Source of the DNA: Treponema sp.
GTDB lineage: Bacteria > Spirochaetota > Spirochaetia > Treponematales > Breznakiellaceae
DNA length: 64,000 bases
Reading direction: 5' to 3'
Assembly: GCA_009777995.1 (NCBI GenBank)
Contig: WRKT01000011.1
Coordinates: 1-64,000, forward strand
Made by a program: the position numbers and the translations under genes. Shown here in pieces: positions 41,976-54,930 of this stretch (its first letter is position 1; each line of letters opens with the position of its first letter). The notes beneath the pieces are model-generated. The model was not told the DNA's origin, did not search any database, and worked only from the letters and a program-made list of their open reading frames with translations.

Positions 41976-42788
41976 ATGGACAAGAAAACTTTTGAAAGTA
42001 CTTTAAAGGAATTTATTGAGAGCTCTTCCGGAAATTTTGTGGGGAAAGATATTCCATTCAGGGATGAGCTCATAGGCATGCGTATTTTTGCCGAGCCTGT
42101 GTTTGGTTATGCCTCTGCCGCAGATCCCTTTTTTGATGAGCTAAAAAACCCCGGTATTATAGGCCCCGGTTATATGGCCCCGATAGAATGGTTAACTGAA
42201 GCTAAAACAGTAATATCCCTATTTCTTCCATTTACCGAGCAAGTTCGGAGGGCAAATGGTCTTAACATGTCATGGCCTAGTGACGAATGGCTGTTAGCTC
42301 GAATTCAGGGGCAGGCATTTCAGAATGATATCTGTCGGTTTGGCGTAGAACTTTTTACAAAGGAAGGCTTTTCAGCCCTTTCTCCTGCAATGGATCCAAG
42401 ATTTAAGCGGCTCACATCAACAGATGACTATGCTGTTAACTGGTCAGAACGTCATACAGCCTATGCTGCAGGCCTTGGAACGTTTGGACTTTCCAAGGGG
42501 CTTATTACCCGAAAAGGTATGGCTGGGCGTTTTTTGAGCTTTATTAGTTCTATCAACCTTGAACCGGATGAGCGGCCTTATAAGGGCATCTACGACTATT
42601 GCAGCTTCTGCGGTGCCTGTGCCCGTAATTGCCCTGCAGGGGCTATTTCCATCGATGAAAAGACAAAGTATCATCAGCCCTGTTCTTCATTCCTGGATTC
42701 TACAAGGGAGAAACACGCACCGTATTACGGCTGCGGCAAGTGCCAAGTTAAGGTTCCCTGCGAGAGTAAAGCGGCGAGGTTGGTTTAA
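41976..42788 (+). CDS. 4Fe-4S protein, epoxyqueuosine reductase-like
   Basis: 270 residues. The C-terminal part has two cluster motifs, CSFCGACARNCP (CxxCxxCxxxCP) and CGKCQVKVPCE. The upstream part has YAAGLGTFGLSKGLITRKG, equivalent to the GLGxxGxxxxLI motif shared by QueG and reductive dehalogenases. It is shorter than QueG (about 350) and lacks a Tat signal, so it is a cytosolic relative whose reaction is not known. It is of interest because a reductive-dehalogenase locus lies 6 kb downstream. Ends 3 bases from the convergent MATE gene. Confidence 0.78.
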   Translation: MDKKTFESTLKEFIESSSGNFVGKDIPFRDELIGMRIFAEPVFGYASAADPFFDELKNPGIIGPGYMAPIEWLTEAKTVISLFLPFTEQVRRANGLNMSWPSDEWLLARIQGQAFQNDICRFGVELFTKEGFSALSPAMDPRFKRLTSTDDYAVNWSERHTAYAAGLGTFGLSKGLITRKGMAGRFLSFISSINLEPDERPYKGIYDYCSFCGACARNCPAGAISIDEKTKYHQPCSSFLDSTREKHAPYYGCGKCQVKVPCESKAARLV

Positions 42789-45892: not shown

Positions 45893-46162
45893 TTAACCTA
45901 CGGAGTTTAACATGGCTTCTCTAAGAATATTATTCATGCGGGTCTGGTATCCTTTTCCTGCACTCTGCAGCCATTCGATTACATCAGCGTCAAGACGGAC
46001 ATTGACTGTCTTCTTGATAGGTTTATAATTGGCCATGTTAATGTAATGAGAAGGCTTCAGCCGGGAAATTTGCTCATCGGTCAATTCCGGAGCATCTGAA
46101 AAGTCTGTATTTTTGAAAGCTTTAATTTTTTTAGCAATCTGTGCTTTTTCTGTAATGGTCAT
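45893..46162 (-). CDS. brnA: BrnA-family antitoxin, orphan
   Basis: 89 residues with the BrnA pattern: a charged N-part (DFSDAPELTDEQISRLKPSHYIN) and a C-terminal ribbon-helix-helix-like domain (KKTVNVRLDADVIEWLQSAGKGYQTRMNNILREAM). BrnA represses its own operon and neutralises the RNase BrnT. No BrnT reading frame lies upstream, where it would be expected, so this copy is alone. An 18-bp palindrome upstream overlaps its probable promoter. Confidence 0.85.
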   Translation of the reverse strand: MTITEKAQIAKKIKAFKNTDFSDAPELTDEQISRLKPSHYINMANYKPIKKTVNVRLDADVIEWLQSAGKGYQTRMNNILREAMLNSVG

Positions 46163-47162: not shown

Positions 47163-47399
47163 TCAATCTGAGGTTAATATCATTATTTTTTCTCGTACCA
47201 TGTCGCTTACTACTTGGGAGGGGGTTTTATTTTCTTGCTCGGATATTGTTAGTATGTAACCGGCACTTACATTATCAAGAAAGCTTAACAGTTCACGATT
47301 TCGGGTCAAAGGTCCTGTGCCTTCCAAGAGTTCCGGTGGATTTTCTGTCCATTTTTTTTGGAGTGCCCATGCCTCTTCGTCAGTCAGTCTTTTTGCCAT
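47163..47399 (-). CDS. Small antitoxin-like protein, full-length copy
   Basis: 78 residues from the ATG at 47399, with AAGGAG 5 bases upstream. The N-part is LTDEEAWALQKKWTENPPEL and the C-part LLSFLDNVSAGYILTISEQENKTPSQVVSDMVREKI, where the last helix pair resembles a short DNA-binding antitoxin. I do not recognise the family by name. A shortened copy in the same orientation lies at 53692-53862 on the far side of the reductive-dehalogenase genes, and a third, more distant member at 54688-54930. Confidence 0.65.
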   Translation of the reverse strand: MAKRLTDEEAWALQKKWTENPPELLEGTGPLTRNRELLSFLDNVSAGYILTISEQENKTPSQVVSDMVREKIMILTSD

Positions 47400-47767
47400 T
47401 TTTCTCCTTAAATATCTACGCAAATGCTGCCTCATGATATTAGATAACCATACCTAATAATAATTTATAGTTAAAAGCATATATATGCAATAATCCGGGA
47501 AGACTCATATTGAAAAAATGCCGAGCAGCGGCTTCTATAACTTAATGCTATGACACCATTTTTCCAAGCATTTTTTCCAAGTACTTGGAAAAAATTTATA
47601 CTTGTGAAAAAATGTTGAATTGGTATATATAAAATGAGACGTAATTCTAAGCTTACACTTTATAATTGCGCTTTTTCTAGACGAACCGGTTAAAATTGGG
47701 GAAAATATCAGAAAGATAGACCATAATCTGGAGAAATCGATTGAAAAGAAAGAATATAAAGTTAAAA
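47400..47767. other. Intergenic stretch with operator-like palindrome and an ORF remnant
   Basis: This AT-rich gap has no gene I can support. It contains the 24-bp palindrome listed separately and, at about 47680-47860, an open plus-strand frame (DEPVKIGENIRKIDHNLEKSIEKKEYKVKTK) without a start, which may be the tail of a lost gene. The homology between the flanking antitoxin-like copies stops just inside this stretch. Confidence 0.4.
47571..47594. promoter_or_regulatory. Perfect 24-bp palindrome (operator-like)
   Basis: TTTTTTCCAAG (47571-47581), TA, CTTGGAAAAAA (47584-47594), with an extra half-site TTTTTCCAAG just upstream at about 47559-47568. The T-run is on the 5' side of the stem, so it is not a terminator. 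Confidence 0.6.
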
Positions 47768-48220
47768 CTAAGTTTTACTGCTTAAATCTTCCAAATTCTC
47801 AATTATTTTTTTACTGCAGAGATAAAATACAGAAAGATCATCATTCTCAATACCTTTAAATATATGTGGCAGAAAATTTACACCCGCAGCTAAATACTCT
47901 TCAAATGACTTTCTGCCTTTTTGGGTTACCGATATATGGTAGCGACGACGATCTTCCTCATCTTTACCTCTTTCGAGTATTCCGGCTTTAACCATTTTAT
48001 CTACAGCATGGGCTACTGCAGGCTGTGTAATTCCGGCTTTCTCAGCGATTTCTTTTTGTGTTATAAACCTGCCATTAGCACGTATAAATGCTGCCAGCAC
48101 AAATGGATTACATATTGCACTTAAATTATGTTCAAGTAAATTTTTTCCAATAAATTTCAAATATTTATTTGACAATGTTTTTATATTATTGTGTATAATT
48201 TTATACTTTTCAGGGTCCAT
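47768..48220 (-). CDS. MarR-family transcriptional regulator
   Basis: 150 residues from the ATG at 48220 (MDPEKYKII), which follows GGGGGA by 9-10 bases; an upstream in-frame ATG at 48298 overlaps the divergent promoter and is unlikely. The winged helix is clear: FITQKEIAEKAGITQPAVAHAVDKMVKAGILERGKDEEDRRRYHISVTQKG, with the DxRxxxxxLT-like wing. MarR regulators usually repress the divergent gene and respond to small aromatic ligands. Regulators of this family control reductive-dehalogenase operons in Dehalococcoides, so a halogenated aromatic as inducer is a reasonable guess. Confidence 0.85.
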   Translation of the reverse strand: MDPEKYKIIHNNIKTLSNKYLKFIGKNLLEHNLSAICNPFVLAAFIRANGRFITQKEIAEKAGITQPAVAHAVDKMVKAGILERGKDEEDRRRYHISVTQKGRKSFEEYLAAGVNFLPHIFKGIENDDLSVFYLCSKKIIENLEDLSSKT

Positions 48221-48291
48221 GTATAAATCTTCCCCCTTTCGGTTCTCTTTCTTTCTTCTGTAATAGTGTATCAAAATATAGAAAAAAATGC

Positions 48292-48328
48292 TTGACAAAT
48301 ATAAACATTTATATTATAAACATTTATA
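48292..48328 (+). promoter_or_regulatory. rdh operon promoter overlaid by two tandem palindromes
   Basis: TTGACA (48292-48297), 17 bases, TATAAA (48315-48320). The palindrome TATAAACATTTATA occurs at 48300-48313 and again at 48315-48328, a 15-bp period, filling the spacer and covering the -10 box and start site. A bound MarR dimer on each would block polymerase. Confidence 0.75.
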
Positions 48329-48350
48329 TAATATTTTTTGGGGATTATCA

Positions 48351-49979
48351 ATGGGTTTTACTCGTTATTTTATTAGTTTTGTCGCTGCTCTTATCGTGTA
48401 CTGGATGCTCATTAAAAAGGAAAGAGTTAAAAAATGGTATACCTGTTTTCTTGCTGTCATTTTTATCATCTTTACTGTGTTTCTGCTTGATTTCTCTGCT
48501 ACAACCTTTTATGAAGGAGAACATCAAGGGGCAATGGTAGCCTTGCTACTCTTTGGACTTGCCGATTTAGTAATTTTTGCTCTATGGAAGTTTTCTCCAA
48601 ATTTTGCAGAGAAAGTCAGGAAAGATGTTGGGGTCAATAAAAATCAGAATGATAAGATACCCGAAATGAGCCGTAGAGACTTCCTGAAAAACACAGGTGC
48701 TGTAGCCGCGGGTGTCGGGCTTGCAGCTTTACCAATAGCACTAATAAATTCTGATTACCTGACAGTTAACAGTATTGATGATTTATATGATATTCCTGCT
48801 GATTTACAACGCTATGACCAGAAAATGGATGCCCGTACAGCAAGGCGATGGAACAATGAACTATCTAGTGAGTTTAATGGTGCAATAACAGAAGCCTTTC
48901 GAAGTATGCCTCCTGTGGCTCAGCCCGATATTGCTACATTAGCGTCAGGTATAGTAAGTTTTGCTTTTGGCTCGGACCTCGGATACCGTGCGGGTAATGA
49001 TGGTTTATACAGTTGGTTCCCTCTTGGCTCACGCATACCGCCATTTCCGGCTCATGTCCTCCCAAACAGCCCATGGCAAGCTTCTCCTGAAGAAGCTACC
49101 CGGAGAATTAAGCGATATGCCAGAGATGTAGGAGCCTTAGATGTCGGTGTTTCCATGCTCGATAAACGTTGGGTTTATTCACGCTGGTCTCATCGTAGCG
49201 GAGTTCTCTCTAATGTACAGGAAGGAGATATTCTATTTGAAGATGTCCCTAGGCCTGAAATCTGGCCGGATGGAACCAGGGTTATCCCTGAGTCAATGAA
49301 GTATTGTGTGGTATTACTGCACGAAATGCCTTATGACATGATTGCAACATCACCTGATGTAATAGGGATGGGAGGAACGTTTTACGGGTACTCTGATATG
49401 GCGTTTAGAGTAGCTATGGTTGCTGAATATATCAGAATTCTGGGATGGCAGGCAATTCCCAGTGGGAATGGAGATTCTCTTTCTATCCCTGAGGCAATAA
49501 ATGCAGGACTGGGACAATTAGGACGCAGTAATTTGCTTATACATCCGAAATATGGACCAAGGGTAAGGATTACGAATATTTATACTGATCTCCCATTATC
49601 TCCCGATAAACCGATTGACTTTGGGGTTACAAAGTTTTGTGAATCATGTATGAAATGCGCTGATGAATGCCCGGGAGAAGCAATTCCGCATGGGCCTATG
49701 ACTACAATAGGGCATGGGTTTATTAGTTTTGAAGGTGTAAAAAAATGGTATTCAGATGGGCGAAAATGTAGTCATTTCTGGGCGCGGCAAGGTGGATTAG
49801 CCTGCTCAAACTGCATCAGAACCTGTGCGTATAATAAACCACCGGGTTATTGGACACACGATCCATTCGGTGTGAAATTAGCTCCAATCCTCGGAGGAAG
49901 ATTGTTATCAACAATTGATAATTGGATGGGTTATGGAGAAAAACTAGGACAGTCTGAATTTTGGAATAGAAAAATATAA
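48351..49979 (+). CDS. Fused RdhB-RdhA: membrane anchor plus reductive dehalogenase
   Basis: 542 residues from the ATG at 48351 (GGGGA upstream). Residues 1-85 have three membrane helices and match the separate RdhB-like protein encoded at 50713. A Tat motif follows at 107-113 (SRRDFLK) with a hydrophobic stretch, then the RdhA domain. AGLGQLGRSNLLIHPKYGPRVR and YTDLPL are the corrinoid-domain signatures. Fe-S cluster ligands are C430, C433, C436, C440 and C473, C485, C488, C492. The usual CPWNKP reads CAYNKP. RdhA enzymes remove halogens from organohalides using cobamide and two 4Fe-4S clusters on the outer face of the inner membrane. An internal Tat motif after a membrane domain is odd. First gene of a five-gene run. 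Confidence 0.87.
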   Translation: MGFTRYFISFVAALIVYWMLIKKERVKKWYTCFLAVIFIIFTVFLLDFSATTFYEGEHQGAMVALLLFGLADLVIFALWKFSPNFAEKVRKDVGVNKNQNDKIPEMSRRDFLKNTGAVAAGVGLAALPIALINSDYLTVNSIDDLYDIPADLQRYDQKMDARTARRWNNELSSEFNGAITEAFRSMPPVAQPDIATLASGIVSFAFGSDLGYRAGNDGLYSWFPLGSRIPPFPAHVLPNSPWQASPEEATRRIKRYARDVGALDVGVSMLDKRWVYSRWSHRSGVLSNVQEGDILFEDVPRPEIWPDGTRVIPESMKYCVVLLHEMPYDMIATSPDVIGMGGTFYGYSDMAFRVAMVAEYIRILGWQAIPSGNGDSLSIPEAINAGLGQLGRSNLLIHPKYGPRVRITNIYTDLPLSPDKPIDFGVTKFCESCMKCADECPGEAIPHGPMTTIGHGFISFEGVKKWYSDGRKCSHFWARQGGLACSNCIRTCAYNKPPGYWTHDPFGVKLAPILGGRLLSTIDNWMGYGEKLGQSEFWNRKI

Positions 49980-50000
49980 ACTTTAAGGAGAAGTAGACCT

Positions 50001-50681
50001 ATGAAGAGTACGATACTGATAATTATCTTGAGCATTACTTTGCTTTCGGCATGCTCTAGACCTGCACCACCACCGCCACCGCCTGCACTACCTAATACCG
50101 CAGTCCAGCCTCCGCAGAGAACTGTCCAGTCTTCACCTGACCCCGTTGTTACAAATTTTGACATTCCGGCGGGTATGATTGGGCAAATCGTAGAAATTGA
50201 CATGAGGGGCACCCTAGTTCAAGTTCAGGTGATTGCAAACCCGGAACTAACCCGTTGGCAGGCATCGTTCAGTTTCATGGGGGATCATAATGCCGCAGGC
50301 TCATTTGATCCAAATATGACAATGACAGTACTCCAGGCAAGCAGCGATATCGGCGAGCGTGTCATGACTTTAGTTCAACCGGAACTTAGTAATAATTGGG
50401 TCACTTCACAAAGCAGTGTTGCAGGTGCCTCTGCTTTAGCAGGAATGTTATCACAAACAGTAACGATAGATTTACGCGGCAGTGCAATTCCTGTTCAAGT
50501 GTCTGCCAATGCAGAACTCACTGAGTGGAATGTTCGGGCGAATCTAATGGGCAATGATTTTACAGCTTCCGGAACTTTTGGTGCGGGCAAGGTAATGAAT
50601 ATAACCCAGACAAACGATTCAGGGCGTGCCGGTATGATAATAGGTTTGGTAGCAGATGGGCTTATCGATGATTGGGATTAG
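50001..50681 (+). CDS. Lipoprotein with duplicated domain, within the rdh operon
   Basis: 226 residues. A lipobox (LLSAC, Cys18) is followed by a proline run (PAPPPPPPALP) and two copies of a ~57-residue unit at about 57-113 and 147-203. Both read as G-M-(I/L)-x-Q-x-V-x-I-D-(M/L)-R-G, then VQV-(I/S)-AN-x-ELT-x-W and a strand ending AAGSF or ASGTF. I do not recognise the family and know no such protein in described rdh operons. It would sit in the periplasm beside the dehalogenases. Starts 21 bp after the fused gene, 31 bp before the rdhB-like gene. Confidence 0.7.
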   Translation: MKSTILIIILSITLLSACSRPAPPPPPPALPNTAVQPPQRTVQSSPDPVVTNFDIPAGMIGQIVEIDMRGTLVQVQVIANPELTRWQASFSFMGDHNAAGSFDPNMTMTVLQASSDIGERVMTLVQPELSNNWVTSQSSVAGASALAGMLSQTVTIDLRGSAIPVQVSANAELTEWNVRANLMGNDFTASGTFGAGKVMNITQTNDSGRAGMIIGLVADGLIDDWD

Positions 50682-50712
50682 TTGCTAACAAATTTACGAG
50701 GAGGATTGATTT

Positions 50713-51027
50713 ATGGGATTAGTTCGATATGGCATCAGTTTTATTGCGGTATTAATTTATCATTACATGTTTAATAAAAAGGCAAGTCATAAAAAGTGGT
50801 ATACATGTACTTTAGCTGTCATCTTTATATTATTCACCATATTTACTCTTGATTTCACATTTACAACTGTGTTTGAACGAGAGCCGCAGGCTGCTTTTGT
50901 TTCTTTCTTGCTTTTCGGAATAGCGGACTTAATGATTTTCGCAGCATGGCGCTTTTCACCTTTAATTGCAGAAAAACTCAGCAAACAAAGCTCTATCAAA
51001 GGGGAGGATCTTCATGAAGCAAAATGA
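50713..51027 (+). CDS. RdhB-like membrane anchor
   Basis: 104 residues with three membrane helices (YGISFIAVLIYHYMF; WYTCTLAVIFILFTIFTLDF; AAFVSFLLFGIADLMIFAAW). It aligns along its length with the N-terminal domain of the fused protein at 48351 (KKWYTC-LAVIFI-FT-F-LDF and LLFGIADL-IFA-W-FSP). In organohalide-respiring bacteria a small RdhB anchors RdhA to the membrane. GAGGAGG precedes the ATG. It overlaps the next rdhA by 14 bp. Confidence 0.8.
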   Translation: MGLVRYGISFIAVLIYHYMFNKKASHKKWYTCTLAVIFILFTIFTLDFTFTTVFEREPQAAFVSFLLFGIADLMIFAAWRFSPLIAEKLSKQSSIKGEDLHEAK

Positions 51028-52339
51028 ATCTAACGAAAAACTAAAAATAAGCCGCAGGAATTTTTTAAGAACTGTAGGTGTCGCAGGAGCTACTGCTGCA
51101 AGTGCAGGTCTATTCCTGTCAATGGCTTCTACAAGAACTGATACAGGCCCCAATTCAAAACTTGATGACACTCACCCTTTTGCTCCTTGGTATAAAAAAT
51201 TCGACCAGCACTATGATGGTCGAAAAATGAGAAGGTGGAATGAAGAAAACAGGAATTTAATGATGCCACTTGCATTGCAAGCAGGTGAAATTCATGATAA
51301 TCGTCCGGCTTTAGAAAAATCAATCCGTGATGCAATGGGGACTGTTACGCGGTCTTTTGGTTCTAACGCAGGTCTTTCAACTGGAAACGGAGGTCTTTAC
51401 AGTTGGGAACCTTTGGGAATTACATCTCCACCTAAACAAAGATGGGAAGGTAGCTCTGAAGAAGCGGCTATGATCTTGAAACGTTTCAGCCATGACTGCG
51501 GTGCAGTCGATACCGGAATAACATTATTGGATGAGCGTCTGGTTCATTCACATTGGTATGAGAATGACTCTGAATCAGGTGAGATTATAATAAGCGATAC
51601 AGCCGAAAAGCCGCAACAGTTGCCCGATGGGACAAGACTCATACCATCAAGTATGAAATATGTTATCGTACAGCTTTGTTCAATGCCATATGATATGATA
51701 CAGACTTCTACATCCACCATAGCCACAGGCGCTGCAAATCTGGGTTATTCCATGATGGCTTTTGTAACACCACCGCTTGCAGAATTTATCCGCGGTCTTG
51801 GTTGGCAAGCAATACCGGCAGGAGCTAGCACAGTAAGCGTAATTCCGCTTGCTATTGCAGCAGGACTTGGTGAATATGGGCGCAATGGCCTATTAATCAA
51901 TCCGGAATATGGTCCAAGAGTACGAATTACAACAGTAATCACTGATTTACCTCTGGCAACAGATAATATTATGAAATTCGGTGTCCAAAATTTCTGTGAA
52001 AGCTGTATGGCTTGTGCAGAGAATTGCCCCGCCCAGGCAATTCCATATGGTTCAATGACATGGGAAGGGAACAGTGTTTCTAACAATCATGGTGCTTATA
52101 AATGGTATATAGATGCAACGAGATGTCATATGTTTGAGGCTTCAAACGGCGGACCTTGTAGTAACTGTATTAGAACTTGTGCTTATAACAAACCACCCGG
52201 TTTCTGGACTCATGATCCTTTCGGATTAAGAGTTGCTTCAATATTGGGTGGGAATATCATGGCTAAAATGGATGAGTTGATGGGCTATGGAAGAGTGTTA
52301 AGCCAAGAAGATTTCTGGAGAAAAAAATCAAGAGGATAG
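51014..52339 (+). CDS. Reductive dehalogenase homologue RdhA (second copy)
   Basis: 441 residues from the ATG at 51014, preferred because GGGGAGG lies just upstream and the Tat motif then falls at 13-19 (SRRNFLR). The corrinoid-domain motifs are AAGLGEYGRNGLLINPEYGPRVR and ITDLPL; the Fe-S motifs are CESCMACAENCP and C-x11-CSNCIRTC, again with CAYNKP. The leader makes the folded enzyme a Tat export substrate, held at the membrane by the rdhB-like product whose gene overlaps this one. Close paralogue of the flanking RdhA domains. Confidence 0.87.
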   Translation: MKQNESNEKLKISRRNFLRTVGVAGATAASAGLFLSMASTRTDTGPNSKLDDTHPFAPWYKKFDQHYDGRKMRRWNEENRNLMMPLALQAGEIHDNRPALEKSIRDAMGTVTRSFGSNAGLSTGNGGLYSWEPLGITSPPKQRWEGSSEEAAMILKRFSHDCGAVDTGITLLDERLVHSHWYENDSESGEIIISDTAEKPQQLPDGTRLIPSSMKYVIVQLCSMPYDMIQTSTSTIATGAANLGYSMMAFVTPPLAEFIRGLGWQAIPAGASTVSVIPLAIAAGLGEYGRNGLLINPEYGPRVRITTVITDLPLATDNIMKFGVQNFCESCMACAENCPAQAIPYGSMTWEGNSVSNNHGAYKWYIDATRCHMFEASNGGPCSNCIRTCAYNKPPGFWTHDPFGLRVASILGGNIMAKMDELMGYGRVLSQEDFWRKKSRG

Positions 52340-52342
52340 ATA

Positions 52343-53689
52343 ATGAAATCTAAAGACAATAATAAAAAACCTGCGGCTGACATAAAAATTAGTCGAAGGA
52401 ATTTTCTAAAAGGTGTAGGTGTTGCTGCTCTGGGAGCAGGTTTAGCCGCTTCTGTTCCACTGACAATTTCAGAACTCAGGCCCAAAAGAGGGAACTCTAT
52501 TGATGATTTTTACGAGATAAGTCCGGATATCCGACGCTTTGATCTTAGGAACAATGTCCGTAGCCGTGCAAGTTGGGATCAGGAGTATGCAGCAAGGGTT
52601 AGGGAAGCTCAAGCGCTTAGTGCAGAGGTGGTTGCTGCTCGTACTAGACTTGAACTGGCATTTATGACTGCAACAGGAGTAGTAATGGGAGCTTATGGTA
52701 ATCCATTACAAAACTGGCCACAAGATCACAATGGTGGAATCTTGAGTTGGAGACCGTACAGAATGCGCTTTTTCCCGCCGGACGATATGCCTATTTGGGA
52801 AGGCTCTCCGGAAGAAGCATCTAAGCTTGTTAAGCGGTTTGCTATTGATATTGGTGCGTCAGATGTTGGGATTGGTCCGGTTGACCCTCGTTTTGTCTAC
52901 ACACACGAGAGAAATGGAATGCCGATTGAATTTAGTGATTCAGCTAAGATACCTGAAGTTGTAAGAAGGGCGAATGGAGAGAGCGCCGAAGTCATCCCTA
53001 CAAACATGAAGTATGCTATTAGTGTATTAAGTTTGATGCCTTATGAAATGGTAATGTGCTCGCCTGATCCCGTTGGTGCATCAGTTAGCCAGCTTGGTTA
53101 TTCTCGGGGAAACTATAGTGTTGCAATGATTGCGGAATTCATTCGTGCTCTTGGTTATAACGCCATACCAATGGGACCTGAATCTACTGCAATGCGCGTC
53201 CCGCTTGCAATAGCAGCAGGACTTGGAGAAGGTGGTCGTAATGGGCTTCTTATAAGTCATAAGCTAGGGCCTGGTGTGCGGATTGCATGTGTTTTCACAG
53301 ATTTACCATTGCAATTGGATCATGTTGTTGACTTCGGAGTGCGCAAATTTTGTGACACATGCGGGCTATGTGCCGAGCATTGCCCTGTAGGAGCAGTTTC
53401 ACATGAGCCAATGACTTGGGAAGGTCCCAACATTTCTGCTCAAAGTGGTATAAAAAGATGGTATATTAATGCAGAAAAATGTCATCTGTTTAACTCTTCG
53501 CAAAGCTCAACATGCTTGAATTGTATTAGATCCTGTTCGTATTTTAAGCCTCAGGGATTCTGGACTCATGATCCATTCGGCATAACAGTGGCACCTGTGT
53601 TTGGAGGGAGATTGATGTCAACACTCGATGAGTGGATGGGTTACGGGAAAAAACTTTCCCAAGAGGATTATTGGAATAAGCCAGTGTAA
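52343..53689 (+). CDS. Reductive dehalogenase homologue RdhA (third copy)
   Basis: 448 residues, starting 3 bases after the previous stop. Tat motif at 17-23 (SRRNFLK). AAGLGEGGRNGLLISHKLGPGVR and FTDLPL mark the corrinoid domain. The first cluster is CDTCGLCAEHCP; the second, CHLFNSSQSSTCLNCIRSC, is followed by SYFKP, one step further from the canonical PWNKP. It is the most divergent of the three and may differ in substrate. No rdhB-like gene follows; the antitoxin-like repeat begins 2 bases after the stop. Confidence 0.85.
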   Translation: MKSKDNNKKPAADIKISRRNFLKGVGVAALGAGLAASVPLTISELRPKRGNSIDDFYEISPDIRRFDLRNNVRSRASWDQEYAARVREAQALSAEVVAARTRLELAFMTATGVVMGAYGNPLQNWPQDHNGGILSWRPYRMRFFPPDDMPIWEGSPEEASKLVKRFAIDIGASDVGIGPVDPRFVYTHERNGMPIEFSDSAKIPEVVRRANGESAEVIPTNMKYAISVLSLMPYEMVMCSPDPVGASVSQLGYSRGNYSVAMIAEFIRALGYNAIPMGPESTAMRVPLAIAAGLGEGGRNGLLISHKLGPGVRIACVFTDLPLQLDHVVDFGVRKFCDTCGLCAEHCPVGAVSHEPMTWEGPNISAQSGIKRWYINAEKCHLFNSSQSSTCLNCIRSCSYFKPQGFWTHDPFGITVAPVFGGRLMSTLDEWMGYGKKLSQEDYWNKPV

Positions 53690-53691
53690 TT

Positions 53692-53862
53692 TCAATCGGT
53701 TGTCAGTATCATCATTTTTTCCCGTACCATGTCACTTACGTTATCAAGAAGGCTTAACGGTTCACGATTTCGGGTTAAGGGTCCTGTGCCTTCCAAGAGT
53801 TCCGGTGGATTTTCTGCCCATTTTTTTATCCATGCTTCTTCGTCAGTTGGTCTTTTTGCCAT
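53692..53862 (-). CDS. Small antitoxin-like protein, internally deleted copy
   Basis: 56 residues, too short for most gene finders. It matches the 78-residue protein at 47163 (AKRPTDEEAW, KKWAENPPELLEGTGPLTRNREPLSLLDNVSDMVREK) but lacks a 60-bp in-frame block between two CTTAC/ACTTAC repeats, which removes the 20 residues of the central helix, plus two more residues near the N-terminus. A ribosome site (GGGGA) is kept. The lost block carries most of the C-terminal domain, so it is probably non-functional or altered. Together with the 47163 copy it forms direct repeats around the rdh locus. Confidence 0.65.
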   Translation of the reverse strand: MAKRPTDEEAWIKKWAENPPELLEGTGPLTRNREPLSLLDNVSDMVREKMMILTTD

Positions 53863-53938
53863 CTTTCCCCTTTATTTTGCTTCAGTAAGCAATTTGCACC
53901 TGCACGGCATTGCATGAAATACAAAGCTAAGTCTTATT

Positions 53939-54060: not shown

Positions 54061-54381
54061 ATGCTCATGACAAATGTCGAGTGGGATGATGATAAAAATG
54101 AAGTCAATAAACGGGAGCATGAAGGCTTGGGCTTTGAACTGGCTCAACTTGTTTTTTCAGACCCGAATCGTCTTGAGCGCATAGATCGGAGCGATAATAA
54201 TGTTTTCAGAGAAGAGTGATGGCAAACTCTGGGTATGGTAGGGAAGGTTCTTTTCGTTGTTTATACAGAACGAGGAGAGAGGAAACGGCTCATATCAGCG
54301 CGCCTGGCTAACAAGGCAGAACGGAGAAGCTATAATGGGAATTACCAGATCGACGGTAAAGGTTGGTCAAAAGCCAACTAA
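54061..54381 (+). pseudogene. brnT: brnT toxin gene interrupted by one nonsense codon
   Basis: The frame from ATG 54061 reads as BrnT: NVEWDDDKNEVNKREHEGLGFELAQLVFSDP, then after the stop WQTLGMVGKVLFVVYTERGERKRLISARLANKAERRSY. TGA at 54217-54219 splits it after REE. BrnT proteins usually have Glu-x-Arg-Trp here, so the stop fits a CGA-to-TGA change. The frame then stays open to TAA 54379-54381. BrnT is an RNase toxin of RelE-like fold. The brnA gene overlaps its end. Loss of the toxin would leave a harmless antitoxin. Confidence 0.8.
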
Positions 54382-54652
54382 AGAACAGCTAAAACAGATT
54401 CGAGAAATTGCGAAAAGACCTATTCATTATACTGAGGACTGTCCTGAATCTACTCAAGAAGCTCTTGCAGAATTTGCAGCAATGGCACGAGCTCGGTGGA
54501 CAAGAAAAATAAAGCCTACAGTATCCCTGCGTTTGGAACCGGAGGCTTTGGAAAAATACAAGGCTTTAGGCAGCGGATATACCGGTATCATGGCTGATGT
54601 GCTGAATTACGTTGCGGATAACCCGGAGATACTCTCAAAAGTTCGTACTTGA
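54335..54652 (+). CDS. brnA: BrnA-family antitoxin
   Basis: 105 residues from the ATG at 54335, preceded by GGAG. The N-part (PTKEQLKQIREIAKRPIHYTEDCPESTQEALAEFAAMAR) is the BrnT-binding segment and RKIKPTVSLRLEPEALEKYKALGSGYTGIMADVLNYV is the DNA-binding segment. It starts inside the 3' end of the broken brnT frame, the normal layout of the pair. It likely still represses the shared promoter. Confidence 0.85.
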   Translation: MGITRSTVKVGQKPTKEQLKQIREIAKRPIHYTEDCPESTQEALAEFAAMARARWTRKIKPTVSLRLEPEALEKYKALGSGYTGIMADVLNYVADNPEILSKVRT

Positions 54653-54654
54653 TA

Positions 54655-54706
54655 AGTAAGCTTTGCATGAAAAATCAGATATTAATATTAAGAGCTCCGG
54701 GATACA
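54655..54706 (+). pseudogene. Fragment of the DUF5678/retropepsin gene junction
   Basis: GTAAGCTTTGCATGAAA (54655-54671) equals the junction of the 46362 and 46592 genes, and the frame goes on MKNQILILRAPGY, compared with MKYQALTLKAPGI. Similarity ends as the antisense gene at 54688 begins. Confidence 0.5.
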
Positions 54707-54930
54707 GACACTTCTATTTCCTGATGCACTATTTCTTCGATAACCTGTGCCGGAGTTTGACCGGAAGCTTCCGCACGTGCCAAAATATAGCCCACTGTAA
54801 CTTTGTCAAGTACATCAAGTAACGCTCGCTGTTGGGCAAAAACCCCGGGGCGGTTAAAATTTACCCTTGGTGTTGTTTTTGTCCAGCGTTCATCAAGTTC
54901 ATCATATTCTTCATCAGCCATGTCTGTCAT
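54688..54930 (-). CDS. Small antitoxin-like protein, third family member
   Basis: 80 residues. MADEEYDELDERWTKTTPRVNFNRPGVFAQQRALLDVLDKVTVGYILARAEASGQTPAQVIEEIVHQEI follows the same plan as the 78-residue protein at 47163 (DEE-rich start, KWTxNPP-like spacer, LLDxLDxVxxGYIL and TPxQVI helices). The start at 54930 or 54921 (second Met) cannot be decided; only a weak AGAG site is present. No toxin partner is adjacent. Function unknown; antitoxin-like by size, composition and neighbourhood. Confidence 0.6.
   Translation of the reverse strand: MTDMADEEYDELDERWTKTTPRVNFNRPGVFAQQRALLDVLDKVTVGYILARAEASGQTPAQVIEEIVHQEIEVSVSRSS

Follow-up and report, generated by a model that had tools for sequence, protein, structure and literature searches.

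Here, we describe an operon encoding three predicted respiratory-type reductive dehalogenases (RdhA1, RdhA2, and RdhA3) in a Treponema MAG; in our assessment, the operon was probably acquired horizontally and is probably repressed by a MarR-family regulator. The operon was found in a stretch of 64,000 nucleotides (the window) on contig C11, and the case for it combines curated models, a predicted fold, conserved residues, phylogeny, and the repeats and promoter-overlapping palindromes that surround the genes.

Genome context and operon structure

The MAG comprises 2.63 Mb in 59 contigs at 86.6% completeness and is a spirochaete, in agreement with its three genes for FlaA, a spirochaete flagellar sheath protein, compared to none in 14 control genomes. 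Between positions 48351 and 53689, an rdhB-rdhA fusion, a lipoprotein gene, a free rdhB, and two further rdhA genes lie on one strand with a divergent marR gene alongside (Table 1). A first-pass annotation, made from the letters of the window, had already proposed a spirochaete-like genome with these five codirectional genes and the divergent regulator, and its intergenic spacings of 21, 31, -14, and 3 bp proved exact on rereading; the gene set stands, whereas its start sites for rdhA1 (48288), rdhA2 (50966), and marR were corrected. It had not picked up the direct-repeat bracket, the operator pair, the fourth RdhA locus, or the missing Tat genes, all described below. Judged from the upstream bases and alignments, the most likely starts are ATG 48351 for rdhA1 (GGGG upstream, aligning with the start of the free RdhB), ATG 51014 for rdhA2 (favored over TTG 50966 by Shine-Dalgarno-like bases and alignment), and ATG 48220 for marR (GGGGGA upstream). 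All five operon frames are intact, and the RdhA paralogues are 42 to 48% identical, without decay. The lipoprotein matched no known family and had no relative among the loci fetched, and its structure model (pLDDT 41) was unusable. A search for RNA elements in the operon returned none, and genes for RdhC, PceT, and CRP/FNR are absent from it. Elsewhere in the window, a gene between amidohydrolases and a MATE transporter (41976-42788) encodes a 270-aa 4Fe-4S protein with a weak RDH/QueG-like C-terminal part.

Table 1. Features of the operon and its surroundings, in window coordinates
Feature	Position	Strand	Remarks
MarR-family regulator, 150 aa from ATG 48220	47768..48220	-	PF12802 2.8e-12, PF01047
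rdhA1, 542 aa	48351..49979	+	RdhB-like 3-TM anchor (EXE), Tat signal, RdhA catalytic domain
Lipoprotein	50001..50681	+	Two similar ~75-aa repeats
rdhB2, free RdhB-type anchor, 104 aa	50713..51027	+	EXE motif
rdhA2, 441 aa	51014..52339	+	
rdhA3, 448 aa	52343..53689	+	Without its own RdhB
Promoter-like TTGACA-N17-TATAAA for rdhA1	48292..48320	+	Read directly
Palindrome TATAAACATTTATA, two perfect copies	48300-48313, 48315-48328		Overlap the promoter, beside marR
Imperfect direct repeat (~146 bp), left copy	47264..47409		Inside ORF 47163-47435 (-)
Direct repeat, right copy	53733..53872		Brackets the operon with the left copy

Identity of the three RdhA proteins

RdhA1, RdhA2, and RdhA3 score 240, 213, and 208 bits against TIGR02486, the curated reductive-dehalogenase model (cut-off, 160.35 bits), and two of the three also pass PF13486. 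TIGR01409 detects the Tat signal above cut-off in all three and PF10518 in two, and each protein carries the GLGxxGR motif and the eight cluster cysteines; the initial reading of the trio as reductive dehalogenases with a Tat motif, GLGxxGR, and both Fe-S cysteine sets is thus borne out. The nearest solved structures by sequence are the PceA proteins of Desulfitobacterium hafniense (2.6e-54) and Sulfurospirillum multivorans. An AlphaFold2 model of RdhA1, built on 45 sequences, reached a pLDDT mostly >90 in the catalytic part and 42 to 68 in the anchor and linker; Foldseek placed PceA at the top (E 1e-26 to 1e-28), with QueG at about 1e-6, and the S. multivorans PceA match had a TM score of 0.70 to 0.77 by target. 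With this fold match as their basis, cobamide binding and dehalogenation are predicted.

In the 45-sequence alignment, which includes the window trio, every one of the 45 sequences has the catalytic Tyr and Arg, numbered Y246 and R305 in S. multivorans PceA, and all eight cysteines of the clusters. A near-invariant Asn beside the active site, corresponding to Asn272 of S. multivorans PceA, is kept in 42 of the 45 rows and replaced by Ala in RdhA2, Glu in RdhA3, and Gly in one Firmicutes relative; its loss from RdhA2 and RdhA3 may shift their substrate range. The menaquinone pocket described for D. hafniense PceA with K489, H495, D515, and Y520 (PMC10624902) has its equivalents in all three RdhA.

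The trio might instead be QueG or another non-dehalogenase relative, given the shared superfamily and weak scores of 36 to 44 bits with the QueG model TIGR00276. We regard this as practically negligible and reject it, because those scores fall far under the cut-off of 200, the tree places QueG outside with support of 100, and the fold is far closer to PceA; phylogeny against QueG and structure prediction were among the checks that the first-pass annotation had itself proposed. It had also read AYNKP or SYFKP after the second cluster as a possible mark of a distinct clade with other substrates. The distinct clade is upheld by the tree (below), but the motif, which resembles that of the Firmicutes relatives (PYNKP), was rejected as a substrate marker because it varies freely among RDases.

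Membrane anchors and a fusion that keeps its Tat signal

The earlier reading of one RdhB fused to RdhA and one free RdhB-like anchor agrees with the alignments, in which both anchors match RdhB of Peptococcaceae, Gracilibacter, Dehalococcoides, and Sulfurospirillum and carry the EXE motif (EGE in RdhA1, ERE in RdhB2). RdhB2 is 54% identical to the first ~105 residues of RdhA1 and 41% identical to Peptococcaceae RdhB, and it shares a Glu with Dehalococcoides and Sulfurospirillum RdhB. Positive charges follow helices 1 and 3 and acidic residues lie between helices 2 and 3, a pattern which suggests that the C-terminal end of the anchor is inside the cell, where the Tat signal must be; the Tat motif of RdhA1 stands at residue 107, in frame after the anchor. 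A genuine fusion seems more likely to us than a reading error, since the position of the RdhA2 ATG is occupied by GTC (48633) in RdhA1 and the first in-frame ATG after it (48666) has no clear Shine-Dalgarno-like bases ahead of it. Fused ("hybrid") membrane RDases also carry RdhB-like helices on the N-terminal side of their catalytic domain, but the published examples are without a Tat signal (PMC10624902), as are all six other frames with several N-terminal helices among the about 96 RDase frames examined here. An RdhB-RdhA fusion that keeps its Tat motif is a new detail, unseen among the about 90 relatives compared.

Promoter and candidate operators

The promoter-like sequence ahead of rdhA1 was missed by the promoter scan, as its -10 element ends in A. 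The 14-bp palindrome TATAAACATTTATA overlaps it in two copies placed 15 bp apart, the two matches in the window comparing to 0.03 expected, and we consider the copies probable MarR operators. Dehalococcoides rdh genes have been described as under MarR control with the MarR protein as a repressor, in work cited in PMC4635342. The candidate operator pair beside the marR gene is a new detail.

Phylogeny and probable horizontal acquisition

RdhA1 to RdhA3 form one clade (98/94) that is sister to RdhA of Peptococcaceae and Gracilibacter (100/99), and in a wider tree the other spirochaete RdhA fall on other branches. A scan of the genome contigs with the trio alone found no relative, whereas a wider alignment did. 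The MAG is the only RdhA carrier among 200 genomes of its family, with none at E <=1e-25 in the other members, congeners included; across the phylum, 6/393 Spirochaetota genomes passed the TIGR02486 cut-off.

Insertion of the operon by horizontal gain is likely, because three observations converge: the rdhA genes have a third-position GC of 0.31 to 0.34, versus about 0.44 in most long window genes; the direct repeat (Table 1) occurs at two places in the whole MAG, either side of the operon; and secG-like and dnaJ-like genes that are adjacent in two congeners (G421 and G441) are here separated by 18.7 kb of DNA that includes the operon. No tRNA was found at the insertion, and no integrase was seen. 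The Firmicutes affinity, the low third-position GC, and the draft state of the MAG could also be explained by a Firmicutes operon wrongly assembled or binned with a spirochaete, but the operon is internal to a 69.8-kb contig, where spirochaete-syntenic genes border it to the left and right (secG-like; dnaJ/map/degQ-like), and the flanking repeat copies are unique to its site, so we judge such an artefact very improbable. BrnA-type antitoxins and small repeated ORFs also flank the operon (45893-46162, 54257-54652, 47163-47435, and 54688-54930), and repeated DNA pieces lie around it in scrambled order, suggesting a rearrangement hot spot.

Relation to known systems

The sister-clade cassettes of Gracilibacter sp. 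BRH_c7a (L058) and Peptococcaceae AS04akNAM_59 (L057) have the same rdhB-rdhA order and share the YNKPxGYWTH signature with the window RdhA, and the former also has tandem copies. They have RdhC-like and CRP/FNR-like neighbors and no fusion, whereas the window has MarR and a fusion, at about 42 to 51% identity. PceAB, the menaquinol:organohalide oxidoreductase of D. hafniense (8q4h; PMC10624902), has the same RdhA fold, Tyr/Arg pair, and two 4Fe-4S clusters, and has the menaquinone-pocket K/H/D/Y and an EXE RdhB in common with the window operon. In contrast to PceAB, the operon described here places RdhB before RdhA, fuses one anchor to RdhA with the Tat motif kept, and is without PceC and PceT, and full-length identity is low (25%, fold alignment).

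RDase genes in 15 Spirochaetota genomes and an Oceanispirochaeta bin were reported from genome surveys in 2025 (PMC12090745), and together with the six genomes counted here they show that the phylum-level novelty first suggested was overstated. The published RDases of this phylum (PMC12090745; Aarhus Bay bin.30 among them) and those of G198, G082, G189, etc. in our sample come from the same phylum as the window, but the RdhA of G198, G082, G189, etc. belong to different families of Spirochaetota and to different branches of the tree than the trio. L034, L036, L037, and L038 (G198, G082, G189) encode RdhA relatives of 640 to 680 aa that have N-terminal helices, lack a Tat motif, and form a separate branch, while L035:3981-8558 (G198) holds an RdhA near S. 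multivorans PceA together with an RdhB-like protein and apparent NapG/NapH-type ferredoxin genes. Nothing specific linking RDases to termites or guts was found in the literature. The window enzymes are ordinary in kind; the new details are the clade that they form, a fusion retaining its Tat motif, the paired operator-like palindromes, the insertion, and a second RdhA module.

Proposed respiratory context and mechanism

This second module, on contig C49 (L033:848-12545, minus strand), contains a fourth RdhA (167 bits) on another branch, near a Chloroflexi RdhA, with RdhB-like, FMN-binding/NosR-type RdhC-like, HdrCBA, MvhD/FlpD, and Flx-like subunits and two quinone-type genes, for a polyprenyl synthase and a MenA-like prenyltransferase, as neighbors. 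The pairing of Hdr-Flx with a dehalogenase on C49 is unusual. A single further family member, G435 (L145, G435:C7:62001-82000), also has the Hdr-Flx-prenyl part, mostly at 50 to 81% identity (but 29% for the prenyltransferase); its neighbors there are not rdh genes but those for a cytochrome c552-type protein, ResB, and, judging by sequence, cytochrome bd. This recurrence supports a spirochaetal origin of C49 and suggests an electron-input module that may be used with different terminal reductases. Corrinoid uptake is likely, because the one cobalamin riboswitch lies upstream of a TonB receptor gene and a small putative lipoprotein gene.

Neither TatA nor TatC was found in the MAG at its 86.6% completeness, while four RdhA carry Tat motifs; of the objections to a functional, exported enzyme, this absence is the strongest. 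The Tat genes may have been lost to assembly, given that completeness and the presence of TatC in the congener G421; TatC was found in 13/60 family members sampled. The same absence, with the repeat bracket and the sole occurrence of RdhA in the family, could mean that the operon is a remnant or silent island of acquired genes unable to work without export in this host. That is improbable in light of the five intact frames, the conserved residues, the paralogues free of decay, and the intact promoter and operator pair. The missing Tat genes, the loss of the Asn272 equivalent from RdhA2 and RdhA3, and an operon without RdhC or an electron-transfer gene would also fit cobamide enzymes of the RdhA fold without a respiratory role, which would dehalogenate for detoxification or carbon or would reduce a nonhalogenated substrate, in the cytoplasm or uncoupled from quinol. 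We consider this rather unlikely, as the EXE RdhB anchors and menaquinone-pocket residues are kept, all three RdhA have Tat motifs, and the sister group combines rdhB-rdhA with RdhC-like and CRP/FNR-like genes.

A respiratory RdhAB complex, represented here by one MAG, is the prediction favored by the EXE anchors and pocket residues. In the working that we infer, MarR would leave the two promoter palindromes in response to an organohalide (or related ligand), allowing transcription of the operon. Each RdhA subunit would take up salvaged cobamide and a pair of 4Fe-4S clusters and be exported by Tat to the outer face of the membrane, where a covalent anchor of its own would hold RdhA1 and RdhB2 would hold RdhA2 and RdhA3. 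Electrons from menaquinol would enter at the RdhA/RdhB interface and reach the cobamide by way of the two clusters; the cobamide would remove the halogen with the conserved Tyr and Arg. A bolder proposal, which we hold only tentatively and with some doubt, is that RdhA1 unites a menaquinol:organohalide oxidoreductase in one chain (RdhB-Tat-RdhA), its anchor ending inside the cell to present an internal Tat signal, and that RdhA1 and the separate RdhA/RdhC/Hdr-Flx/quinone module would together let this spirochaete respire organohalides by two dehalogenase routes.

Implications

The MarR/operator pair would offer a simple route to the natural inducer, and the bracketed insertion shows how rdh operons may move between phyla. 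If the proposed working is true, a one-chain RdhAB would be useful for testing quinol feed into RDases, and quinol-linked organohalide respiration would be extended to a spirochaete family without an earlier known case.
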